Assembly (NCBI GenBank): GCA_016930835.1 | Contig: JAFGGA010000017.1 | Location: 1 to 55,048, forward strand | From: Deltaproteobacteria bacterium | Lineage (GTDB): Bacteria > Desulfobacterota > DSM-4660 > Desulfatiglandales > HGW-15 | Direction: 5' to 3' | Length of the DNA stretch: 55,048 nucleotides | Shown here: positions 2,722 through 6,656 of the stretch, in pieces | Position numbering within the stretch: position 1 is the stretch's first letter | How the letters are laid out: every line of letters begins with the position of its first letter | The notes under the pieces: model-generated | Told to the model about the DNA's origin: nothing | Database searches by the model: none | Seen by the model: only the letters and a program-made list of their open reading frames with translations | Program-made: the position numbers and the translations under genes

Positions 2722-2974
2722 AACAAGGGATGTTACAGAGGATTTGCGCCCTGAATACGATTTTGATTATTCTAAAGCTGTTCGAGGCAAATATTTTAAA
2801 CGTCTTTTAGAGGAAGGGGCTAACGTGGTTGTGCTCGAACCAGATATCGCCAAGGCTTTTCCTGATTCAGCAGCGGTCAATGATGCATTAAGGTCTCTCC
2901 TTGAACTCACTCGCTCGACACAGCGCCTAACAAAACAATCAAACAGACGTTCCAAGAATCCCCATTCCCATTAA
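2711..2974 (+). CDS. Antitoxin partner of BrnT (BrnA/CopG-like)
   Basis: 87 residues from ATG at 2711, preceded by GGAGAAG within the brnT reading frame; a longer frame opening at 2633 lies inside brnT and is rejected. The middle (YDFDYSKAVRGKYFKRLLEEG...VVLEPDIAKAFPDSAAVNDALRSLLEL) has the features of antitoxins paired with BrnT: an acidic linker and a short ribbon-helix-helix-like stretch at about residues 45-70. It probably binds the toxin and represses its own promoter. The stop codon overlaps the end of mtaB on the opposite strand by 4 bases. Confidence 0.75.
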   Translation: MNTKTRDVTEDLRPEYDFDYSKAVRGKYFKRLLEEGANVVVLEPDIAKAFPDSAAVNDALRSLLELTRSTQRLTKQSNRRSKNPHSH

Positions 2975-4284
2975 ATATCTATAGGCCTCCCTATTACGTG
3001 GCCTTTTCCAAGCTTTTCCGCCCTTACGTTAACAATATTGTTTTGTTGCAATCCGGATGATGAAAAAACAAAAGGTATATAATTATCACTCCATCCCTTG
3101 ATCATGGTCTTTTCAGCCGAATGCCAACCTTCCGTGAGCACCGTGAATTCTTCTCCAAGACATGAGGCATAAAAGGCCGTGCGTTTTTTTTGTCCAAGCT
3201 CCCTGAGCATGCGGGCTCGATCTTTAATCACCTTTGGATCTACTTGATTAGGGAATCCGGCCGCGGCCGTGCCCTTGCGGGGAGAGTAAGGGAAGACATG
3301 CAGGTATGAGACAGGTGAATCGTCGATTAAAGAAAATGTCCTTTCAAAAGCCTCCTGATCCTCTCCCGGAAACCCTGTCATGACATCCACACCGATGGCC
3401 GCGATGGGCATGGCTTGATGGATCCGTTGAATCAAGTCGGAAAATTGTTCGGACGTATAATGTCGGTTCATGCTCTTGAGGATCCTATTATCACCACTTT
3501 GTAGCGGGATATGAAAATGCCGGCAGAGCCATCCTTCAGTCGACATCATATCAATGAGCTGTTGGTCGATCTCCGTAGGTTCCAGGGAACTTAATCGTAT
3601 TCTCAGCCCTGTATTTACCCGGCCAATCATACGGAGCAGGTTCTTCAGATCAATATCCCTACCCAGATCCACCCCATATTTACCGAGATGGATGCCTGTT
3701 AATACAACTTCTCTGCGACCTTCATCCCGCAGCGATTGAAGCCTTTCGATAACCTTGGCGGGATCGAGACTCCGCAAAGGTCCCCTGGCAAAGGGCACGA
3801 TACAATAACTGCAATAGGATTCGCAACCGTCCTGGATCTTTAAAAAGGCCCTTGTTCGATCCGTCAATCCCTTTACAGGGAGGTCATCGAATACCATTCC
3901 CTTTAAGAAAGGCCCTGAGACAACACGTGAATCAACGTCTTGAAGACGTCTCTCCAATATTTGCAGGATATCTTTCTTCCCGGTATTGCCGATAACAAGG
4001 CCAAGGCCCTTTATGCCCAAAAGCTCATCTTGAAAGACCTGTGCATAGCACCCCACAGCCGCTGCGAGCCCTTCGGGATTTTCCCGAATAACCTGCCGGA
4101 TGGCCTGTCTGGATTGATAAGAGGCCTTTTGGGTCACAATGCAGGTATTGATGATGGAAACATCCGCCTTTTCATTCTTTGAGACCTGGCACCATCCAGC
4201 AGCTTGAAGGGTATCCTTAAAAAATGCGGACTCGTATTGGTTGACCTTGCAACCCAGTGTGATGATCTTAAATGTCCTAGACAT
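2971..4284 (-). CDS. mtaB: tRNA t6A37 methylthiotransferase MtaB
   Basis: 437 residues, normal length for MtaB. It is a radical-SAM enzyme that puts a methylthio group on t6A at position 37 of ANN-decoding tRNAs. The N-terminal UPF0004 domain carries the three auxiliary-cluster cysteines (Cys12 in TLGCKVNQYES, Cys48 in NTCIVT, Cys79 in VGCYAQ). The radical-SAM motif is Cys154-x3-Cys158-x2-Cys161 in DGCESYCSYCIVPFARG. The motifs HFHIPLQSGD and DVMTGFPGE and a C-terminal TRAM-like region follow. The TLGCKVNQYES start and lack of MiaB-specific features favour MtaB over MiaB or RimO. It stands alone, convergent with the toxin-antitoxin pair. Confidence 0.93.
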   Translation of the reverse strand: MSRTFKIITLGCKVNQYESAFFKDTLQAAGWCQVSKNEKADVSIINTCIVTQKASYQSRQAIRQVIRENPEGLAAAVGCYAQVFQDELLGIKGLGLVIGNTGKKDILQILERRLQDVDSRVVSGPFLKGMVFDDLPVKGLTDRTRAFLKIQDGCESYCSYCIVPFARGPLRSLDPAKVIERLQSLRDEGRREVVLTGIHLGKYGVDLGRDIDLKNLLRMIGRVNTGLRIRLSSLEPTEIDQQLIDMMSTEGWLCRHFHIPLQSGDNRILKSMNRHYTSEQFSDLIQRIHQAMPIAAIGVDVMTGFPGEDQEAFERTFSLIDDSPVSYLHVFPYSPRKGTAAAGFPNQVDPKVIKDRARMLRELGQKKRTAFYASCLGEEFTVLTEGWHSAEKTMIKGWSDNYIPFVFSSSGLQQNNIVNVRAEKLGKGHVIGRPIDI

Positions 4285-4744
4285 GACTCTTTTCTAAAAT
4301 AAAATTCGACTTCGCCCTCTCACCCCCGTATCCGGTAGGGGGCAGGCTCAATCCCAATGTGGTTGACTTAAGCCCCTAATTTAGTCACAAAAGCCTTCCA
4401 GGTCATTCCGGTGAAGGCCGGAATCCAGGTTCTCCGGAGGCTTCTGGACCCGGGCCTTCGCCGGGGTGACGGCGGGGCCCATAAGATTTACCTTATGTCA
4501 ACAGCATTGAGGTTCAATCCTCTCACTCAAATCAGGGGAGAAGGGGTGAGGTGGTGCAAAGCATAATCTGATAATCTGAACTTGAAGGAATGGATGTACT
4601 AGAGCCCCATTACTCCAGCATTCCTATACTCCAATAATTTTGATTATTATTACAAAAGCGAAGGTTCTTTGGAACGGGTTAGAAAAAAGAGAGAACGATA
4701 TAAAGACTTCAGCCTTGAGCCTTCAGCTTTCAACCCTGTGGGAT
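4285..4744. other. Intergenic region dominated by palindromic repeat A
   Basis: 460 bases without a gene. About 4318-4550 is a nested palindromic element (separate entry). The rest is AT-rich, with a short GCCTTGAGCCTTCAGC-type repeat fragment near 4708-4728. Confidence 0.5.
4318..4550. repeat. Nested palindromic repeat, copy A
   Basis: The core 4402-4470 pairs GTCATTCCGGTGAAGGCCGG with CCGGGCCTTCGCCGGGGTGA. The outer arms pair a segment around 4351-4370 (CCCAATGTGGTTGACTTA) with one at 4491-4510 (TTATGTCAACAGCATTGAGG). Copy B (5226-5453) has the same nested design. The CCGGCGAAGGCCGG core also occurs in the elements at 29.3, 46.7, 51.8 and 54.9 kb. Confidence 0.7.
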
Positions 4745-4810
4745 TTATCCGAACAAACTTTTATTGAAGCTGGCGCTCATGGCCTGGGCAGGACATGCCA
4801 TCACACATCA
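4745..4810 (-). other. In-frame continuation of the NIL-ferredoxin beyond an internal TGA
   Basis: The TGA (complement of 4808-4810) is followed in the same frame by 20 sense codons and a TAA at 4745-4747. The encoded tail, CVMACPAQAMSASFNKSLFG, supplies the missing half of a second [4Fe-4S] motif: C-S-D-C-E-(TGA)-C-V-M-A-C-P is exactly C-x2-C-x2-C-x3-C-P with the TGA at a non-ligand position. The tail is therefore ancestral coding sequence; whether it is still translated is unknown. Confidence 0.75.
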
Positions 4811-5170
4811 TTCGCAGTCACTGCATTTATCCTTATCAAAGATTACTTCCATCTCCGGTCGTTTGATGTAAAGGGCATATGTCGGGCAAACGGCCGTGCA
4901 AGCACCGCATTGAAAACACTTTTCTTCATCTCTTCGGATGTCCTGACCGATACTTTCGACTTTGATTCCCAGTTCTTTCAGGTAACGGACCCCTTCTTGA
5001 TAATTTTTCCGGTGGCCCCGTAACTCCATGACCATAAGGCCCTCTTTACGGGGATACACGGTCGCTTTGAGGATATTAAATGTCAGGTCGAATTTCTTCA
5101 CCAGGTTGACCACAATGGGTTCGGTCACGGTCTTTTTGGGAAATCGAAGTGAAACGGTTTTTGAATACAT
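4808..5170 (-). CDS. NIL-domain [4Fe-4S] ferredoxin, interrupted by TGA in the second cluster motif
   Basis: To the first stop it is 120 residues. Residues 1-75 form a NIL domain (ligand-binding domain best known from MetN-type transporters) and residues 84-98 a complete cluster motif, CFQCGACTAVCP. The protein then reads DKCSDCE and meets TGA, where relatives continue through a second cluster. Reading through would give 141 residues ending at 4745. NIL-ferredoxins of anaerobes are linked to the ferredoxin-dependent sulfur insertion route to homocysteine (with COG1900 proteins), but no COG1900 gene is nearby. The ribosome binding site region AAGGAGAAATCAGT precedes the ATG. The gene sits alone between palindromic repeats A and B. 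A one-cluster truncated product, a nonsense mutation or recoding are all possible. Confidence 0.8.
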   Translation of the reverse strand: MYSKTVSLRFPKKTVTEPIVVNLVKKFDLTFNILKATVYPRKEGLMVMELRGHRKNYQEGVRYLKELGIKVESIGQDIRRDEEKCFQCGACTAVCPTYALYIKRPEMEVIFDKDKCSDCE

Positions 5171-5225: not shown

Positions 5226-5453
5226 CACCCCTACCCTCCTATCCAGTACGGGGTAAATTCTAATCCCAATGCTGCTGATTGAACAGAGATCTTGCCGACC
5301 CATACCGTCACCCCGGCGAAAGCCGGGGTCCAAAATCTTTTAAAAGGCCTGGATTCCGGCCTTCGCCGGAATGGCGATAAAAATCTCCACTTGATGGTTA
5401 CACGCTTAAGTCATCAGCATTGGCTCTAAGCCTGCCCTATCAGGGGGTAGGGA
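5226..5453. repeat. Nested palindromic repeat, copy B
   Basis: Core: GTCACCCCGGCGAAAGCCGG from 5307, then GGATTCCGGCCTTCGCCGGA to about 5376. The outer arms pair TAATCCCAATGCTGCTGATT (5261-5280) with TCATCAGCATTGGC (5411-5424), and the extremities pair CCCCTACCCTCCTATC-like with CCTGCCCTATCAGGGGGTAG-like sequence. The architecture is the same as copy A on the other side of the NIL-ferredoxin gene. It fills most of the 304-base gap 5171-5474. Confidence 0.7.
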
Positions 5454-5474: not shown

Positions 5475-6656
5475 TTACTTAAACTTTTTAATCACCCTCT
5501 CAAATCCGGGTAAGGATCTTTCGATGGTGCTGTCGGAAACGCAATAGGCAATTCTGAAGAATCCCGGCCCGCCGAAACCGCTGCCCGGTACAGTCAGGAT
5601 ATTTTCCTCCTGAAGGGTCGTTATAAACGCCACATCGTCTTCGATGGGGGTTTTAGGAAACAGATAGAAAGCCCCTTCCGGTTTGTGACACACATACCCG
5701 AAGGAAGTAAGCCCATCATAAAGTATATCCCTCTTTTTTTGATAGATAGAAATATCAACGCTTGTATCCAGCAATCGGGCGACGGCCCTTTGCATAAGCG
5801 CGGGGGCATTCACATAACCTAAGATCCGGTTACACAAAACCAGACCTTCGGCCATCGCCTCCTTATTCGTCATTTGGGGATTGATCGCAATATACCCAAT
5901 CCTTTCGCCGGGAAGAGAAAGATCCTTGGAAAACGAAGTCCCCACAAAACTTTCTTCATAGGCGTCAAATATGCTGGGCACCGAGATGCCGTCATAGGCG
6001 ATCTTTCGATAAGGCTCGTCCGAAATCAGATAAATCACATCGCCTTTCCTTTTGCAATCATTCCTCAATAGTTTCCCCAACTCCCCGAGTTCCTCGGCGG
6101 AATAGACCTTTCCGGTGGGATTATTGGGCGAATTGATCAGGACGGCACGGGTCCTTTCCGAAATCACCGCTTCTATGGCATCCAGATCCAGAGAAAAATC
6201 CGGTTTTGTGTTCACTATCCGGGGGATACCCTGATGATTATCCAGATAAAAATTGTACTCCACGAAATAAGGGGCCGGGATAATCACCTCTTCACCGGGG
6301 TTTAGGATCGTCTTCAGAATGACATTCAATGCGCCGCCGGCCCCGACGGTCATGACAATATCATTCGATCCCAACTTCCCGCTGTTGGATCGAGATAAAT
6401 AATCCGCTACGGCCTGGCGTGTGAACTCATATCCCGCATTGGCCATATATGCATGTTGCCCTGGGCTGGTATCATTGATCAGTTCTTTCAAGACCTGTTT
6501 GAACTCCGCTGGTGGCTCCAGGTTGGGATTGCCGAGGCTGAAATCAAACACATTCTCATCCCCGAACTGTGCCTTTCTTTTGGTCCCTTCCTCAAACATT
6601 TTCCGAATCCATGAGGATTTTTCAATCGAGGCCTGTATCTTCTTTGAAGTCGGCAT
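5475..6656 (-). CDS. PLP-dependent aminotransferase, class I (aspartate aminotransferase fold)
   Basis: 393 residues, full length for fold-type I aminotransferases. Visible motifs: SLGNPNLEPP near residue 40 (substrate-carboxylate region), GAGGALNVILKTIL near 105, the NSPNNPTG loop at 175-182, SDEPYRKI with Asp213 pairing with the pyridine nitrogen, the PLP lysine Lys244 in SFSKDLSLPGERIGY, and FRIAYCVS near the C terminus. The substrate cannot be named; aspartate/tyrosine-type amino donors are typical. A GGAGGAA ribosome binding site precedes the ATG. It is transcribed toward the NIL-ferredoxin, but repeat B separates them, so an operon is doubtful. Confidence 0.9.
   Translation of the reverse strand: MPTSKKIQASIEKSSWIRKMFEEGTKRKAQFGDENVFDFSLGNPNLEPPAEFKQVLKELINDTSPGQHAYMANAGYEFTRQAVADYLSRSNSGKLGSNDIVMTVGAGGALNVILKTILNPGEEVIIPAPYFVEYNFYLDNHQGIPRIVNTKPDFSLDLDAIEAVISERTRAVLINSPNNPTGKVYSAEELGELGKLLRNDCKRKGDVIYLISDEPYRKIAYDGISVPSIFDAYEESFVGTSFSKDLSLPGERIGYIAINPQMTNKEAMAEGLVLCNRILGYVNAPALMQRAVARLLDTSVDISIYQKKRDILYDGLTSFGYVCHKPEGAFYLFPKTPIEDDVAFITTLQEENILTVPGSGFGGPGFFRIAYCVSDSTIERSLPGFERVIKKFK

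Follow-up and report, generated by a model that had tools for sequence, protein, structure and literature searches.

In Desulfovibrio and in methanogens, homocysteine synthesis involves proteins that combine a NIL domain with ferredoxin motifs and that act alongside DUF39 and COG2122 proteins, examples being MA1822 of Methanosarcina acetivorans and DvMF_0262 of Desulfovibrio vulgaris Miyazaki F (PMC5764234). A ferredoxin family is also known among selenoproteins, nearly all of which possess Cys homologues: HgcB of mercury methylation contains selenocysteine (Sec) (PMC13188914). The window analyzed here, a stretch of 55,048 nucleotides from the genome of an uncultured deltaproteobacterium resembling sulfate reducers, carries a gene that can be compared with both. 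Like MA1822 and DvMF_0262, it encodes a NIL domain with two 4Fe-4S motifs behind it, and the host genome has the partner DUF39 (HcyBio); unlike them, it is interrupted by a TGA and is not linked to DUF39. As in HgcB and other CxU/CU iron-sulfur selenoproteins, the TGA stands beside a Cys in a genome that decodes Sec, but the Cys/Sec pairing in relatives and the bacterial SECIS element (bSECIS) are both lacking, and the TGA occurs only once. What, then, does such a codon do in the middle of a ferredoxin gene?

The gene lies on the reverse strand at positions 4745..5170. Its translation from 5170 gives 120 residues (4811..5170), a TGA at codon 121 (4808..4810), 20 more residues (4748..4807) and finally a TAA at 4747..4745. 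Pfam places a NIL domain at residues 6-72 (1e-17) and a 4Fe-4S dicluster domain, Fer4_7, at residues 84-130 (8.9e-12), the latter straddling the TGA; polyferredoxin modules with solved structures are similar to this ferredoxin part. The first 4Fe-4S motif consists of Cys85, 88, 91 and 95, and the second one reads C116-S-D-C119-E-TGA-C122-V-M-A-C126-P around the stop. The part before the TGA therefore holds the NIL domain and six ligand cysteines, and the conserved tail holds the remaining two, Cys122 and Cys126. A NIL domain and two C-x2-C-x2-C-x3-C-P motifs are encoded, yet not in a single open frame because the TGA splits the second motif. The initial annotation, made from the sequence alone, had held that this motif is restored exactly past the TGA and that the TGA replaces a non-ligand residue. 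The translation agrees with the former, and the latter is borne out by the location of the stop between Cys119 and Cys122, in a column that varies among orthologues. The in-frame TGA in the ferredoxin gene, with homology continuing beyond the stop, is confirmed.

In 64 of the order's genomes, close orthologues were located by searches of 61 related genomes and, afterwards, of 85 from the order, and the only internal stop is that of the window's copy; the orthologues of the 63 other genomes have none. Further loci came from named genomes, mostly of Thermodesulfobacteriota (46 used, 8 being duplicates), and the host's genus is represented in the genome set by no second genome. Among 67 distinct orthologues, the residue at codon 121 is Leu in 47, Asn in six, Met and Trp in five each, Tyr in two, and Val and Gln in one each, with Cys, Sec and Arg in none. 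Judged from this column, the TGA occupies the place of a residue that is variable, mostly hydrophobic and not a ligand. The nearest relative, G009, is 84% identical, is the sister in the tree (support 97/95), and has Leu (TTA) at the stop position, which is one base change away from TGA. The annotation had also proposed a CGA arginine codon as the ancestor of the TGA. This origin is unsupported because Arg is never present in the 67 orthologues, and the sister codon is that for Leu. Close relatives do carry a sense codon there, which is half of what the annotation had named as its refutation. Past the stop, residues 122-140 align with close orthologues without gaps, and the near-invariant residues of the tail, C122, V123, C126, A130, M131 and F135, are all kept. 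Since the alignment is gap-free and these residues are retained, the similarity of the tail is not a chance match.

The TGA is probably a nonsense mutation of recent date. The gene that it hits, a single-copy NIL-2[4Fe-4S] ferredoxin gene, is one whose loss appears to be tolerated. That the change is a nonsense one at a non-ligand residue had been suspected from the beginning, and the orthologues, with Leu in most, support it. A codon for a residue that varies and is no ligand, mostly Leu and sometimes Met or Trp, would have been turned into TGA, at which release factor 2 (RF2) should end translation to give a protein of 120 residues. TGA is a working stop in the host genome, since RF2 is encoded and eight of the 33 genes in the window are terminated by TGA; for the same reasons, genome-wide recoding of TGA to Trp can be discarded. 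The truncated product would still have its NIL domain, but only six ligand cysteines out of eight, Cys122 and Cys126 being gone. In the standard 2[4Fe-4S] pattern, these two cysteines serve different clusters, and thus each [4Fe-4S] cluster would be one ligand short, with three left, so that the function as a ferredoxin should be lost. Nor was a second intact NIL-ferredoxin found in the host genome, the other matches among those listed covering the Fer4 part only. The gene is intact in relatives and has a disabling stop in the host genome. With ordinary bacterial nonsense pseudogenes it shares a unique premature stop, intact orthologues, a single copy and a rearranged neighbourhood; it differs from them in that its tail is still nearly intact, which means either a very young pseudogene or an artefact. 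In favour of a very young pseudogene are the lost mnmA neighbour, the inverted repeats on either side, the substitutions that seem to have begun to collect after the stop, and the lack of the gene in another genus of the order.

Substitutions on the host branch help to choose between the two. Residue changes on this branch hit five of the 19 codons after the TGA and six of the 120 before it, while on the branch of the sister, G009, there are none in the 19 codons of the tail and nine in the 120 before the TGA position. The excess in the tail of the host branch has a Fisher p of 0.008, or a binomial p of 0.03 if the higher general variability of the tail is allowed for, in a test that was done after inspection of the data and that rests on five substitutions. 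Such an excess would point to relaxed constraint after the stop, and hence to a mutation that is real and young. Decay of the tail, if any, is slight because all the near-invariant residues past the TGA are intact; all five substitutions fall on variable sites and bring in residues present in other orthologues.

The artefact would be a sequencing or assembly error of one base, in which case the ferredoxin of the organism itself is intact, with a sense codon at this place. This is a less likely explanation than the mutation, though one to be taken seriously. The host genome is fragmented (224 contigs, 95% complete), the stop is the sole internal one among 64 orthologue-bearing genomes, the codon of the sister differs from TGA by a single base, and past the stop the reading frame is kept with every ligand retained. 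In addition, the six changes that precede the TGA on the host branch include Ala118 to Asp, which, within three codons of the stop, alters a column otherwise invariant in close orthologues, as in a locally poor stretch of sequence. Against an error, the other six genes of the syntenic block are intact, and an excess of substitutions after the TGA on the host lineage is not expected from one wrong base. In an assembly of normal depth, single-base consensus errors would also be uncommon. A literature search on premature stops in metagenome assemblies returned nothing.

Can the TGA be read as Sec, giving a selenoferredoxin with Sec beside the ligand Cys122? The initial annotation had considered this possible, and with respect to the machinery it was right: the host genome encodes tRNA-Sec (71.8 bits), SelA, SelB and SelD, the SelD gene itself carries an in-frame TGA, and genes of FdhA type, FlpD-like genes and HdrA-like genes have TGAs at typical Sec places. 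The conserved residues past the TGA and the precedent of the Sec-containing ferredoxin family HgcB (PMC13188914) would also fit. At the site itself, however, the idea fails, and selenocysteine there is hardly credible: Cys is found at this site in none of the 67 orthologues, the TGA is shared by none of the 63 other orthologue-bearing genomes of the order, the site is not that of a cluster ligand, and no bSECIS follows. A bSECIS is supposed to lie 16-37 nt after the UGA, with a loop of 3-9 nt that has a G in its first two places and a minimum free energy of -7.5 kcal/mol or below (PMC13188914). The best hairpin with the required G in its loop after the ferredoxin TGA reaches -6.8 kcal/mol, a value also attained by 25% of coding positions drawn at random from the window. 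In the same scan, genuine-looking sites gave -13.7 (SelD), -9.4 to -16.5 (FdhA) and -6.9 to -9.8 kcal/mol (FlpD-like), i.e. mostly -8.8 to -16.5, but the scan is a weak one, as one FlpD-like site at -6.9 also fails the limit and overlaps with the background. The stretch downstream of the TGA is no more stable when folded than shuffled versions of it (z +0.5), so the earlier remark that no obvious SECIS is seen downstream stands. Rfam gave no match over the window. A literature search joining "selenoprotein" with "NIL domain" found no paper. Sec or another recoded residue at a non-ligand place would have to have been gained in this lineage with no Cys before it and by means of a SECIS of unusual form, for which we see next to no chance.

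Readthrough, leaky or programmed, by a near-cognate tRNA-Trp or another tRNA might instead supply some full-length ferredoxin. Trp (TGG) is accepted at the site in five orthologues, and the ligands and the reading frame are kept past the stop. But RF2 is present, no RNA structure lies downstream, the TGA is found in no relative, and substitutions rise past the stop. The base following the TGA is T, a context that is reported to terminate efficiently in E. coli. Readthrough is accordingly very improbable, only slightly less so than Sec.

The host genome holds further interrupted genes. A screen for coding interruptions by hexamer score, covering 445 kb of the host genome with a cut-off of 0.10, found again the Sec-type genes and one HEPN-domain gene split by an in-frame TAA (L139:9663, forward strand), but gives no reliable base rate because the NIL-ferredoxin itself was missed, its tail scoring 0.087. 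Since its stop is TAA, the interruption of the HEPN gene cannot be Sec, and it is another broken gene. Elsewhere, a small protein that looks like a lipoprotein and has a heavy-metal-associated (HMA) domain (L144:9277, reverse strand) carries an in-frame TGA (IPACD-TGA-ADTAYRVR), which by count takes the place of the first Cys in the usual CxxC; it may possibly be a selenoprotein. A UGSC-family protein (L140:2461, forward strand), whose N-terminus is signal-like and whose C-terminal part is long, has an in-frame TGA at the U of the family (GSGD-TGA-GSCT). Two HdrA-like genes (L129:15612, reverse strand, and L131:11652, forward strand) have TGA at the same place (TNDC-S/A-M-TGA) and apparently encode Sec-containing HdrA.

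The surroundings of the interrupted ferredoxin gene are rearranged as well. The order aminotransferase - NIL-ferredoxin - (mnmA) - mtaB is widely conserved, and at the window locus both outer neighbours are intact on the reverse strand, the aminotransferase gene upstream (5475..6656) and the mtaB-like methylthiotransferase gene downstream (2971..4284). Between ferredoxin and mtaB, G009 and many relatives have mnmA, which is missing at the window locus without any remnant between the two genes; the only mnmA of the host genome is located at another place and shares 42% identity with the linked mnmA of G009. Loss of mnmA alone does not explain the stop, because about ten relatives that have no mnmA at the locus retain an intact NIL-ferredoxin. 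A repeat of roughly 130 nt also stands on both sides of the ferredoxin gene, at 5305..5437 upstream and at 4340..4472 downstream, with the two copies inverted relative to each other. This repeat is MITE/REP-like, and its core, CCGGNNTTCGCCGGNNTGAC, occurs seven times in the window with up to two mismatches against 0.06 expected. Adjacency of NIL-ferredoxin, mnmA and mtaB is widely seen (L118:5536-7056; L049, L050, L061 and others), which suggests a link of NIL-ferredoxin to tRNA thiolation.

What did the ferredoxin serve before it was interrupted? The host genome has one DUF39 gene, which is not linked to the ferredoxin gene, and the close orthologues of the order adjoin mnmA and mtaB. In some genomes of the order, e.g. 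G031, a second DUF39 gene is found with a separate NIL-ferredoxin, about 40% identical, directly behind it. The interrupted gene may have acted with DUF39, in tRNA thiolation as its neighbours mnmA and mtaB would have it, or in both. Its loss appears to be tolerated, since in genus g31 of the same order no NIL-ferredoxin was found in the three genomes G039, G047 and G060 (94%, 92% and 88% complete), while DUF39 (HcyBio) is present.

The presence of Sec machinery in a genome does not count as evidence that a particular in-frame TGA encodes Sec; it is the orthologue column and the SECIS test that decide. As a broken gene, the ferredoxin matters little by itself. If the truncation is real, however, the lineage does without a NIL-ferredoxin, relatives of which Desulfovibrio requires to make methionine (PMC5764234), and a small question would follow from it: what serves DUF39 in the host and in genus g31?
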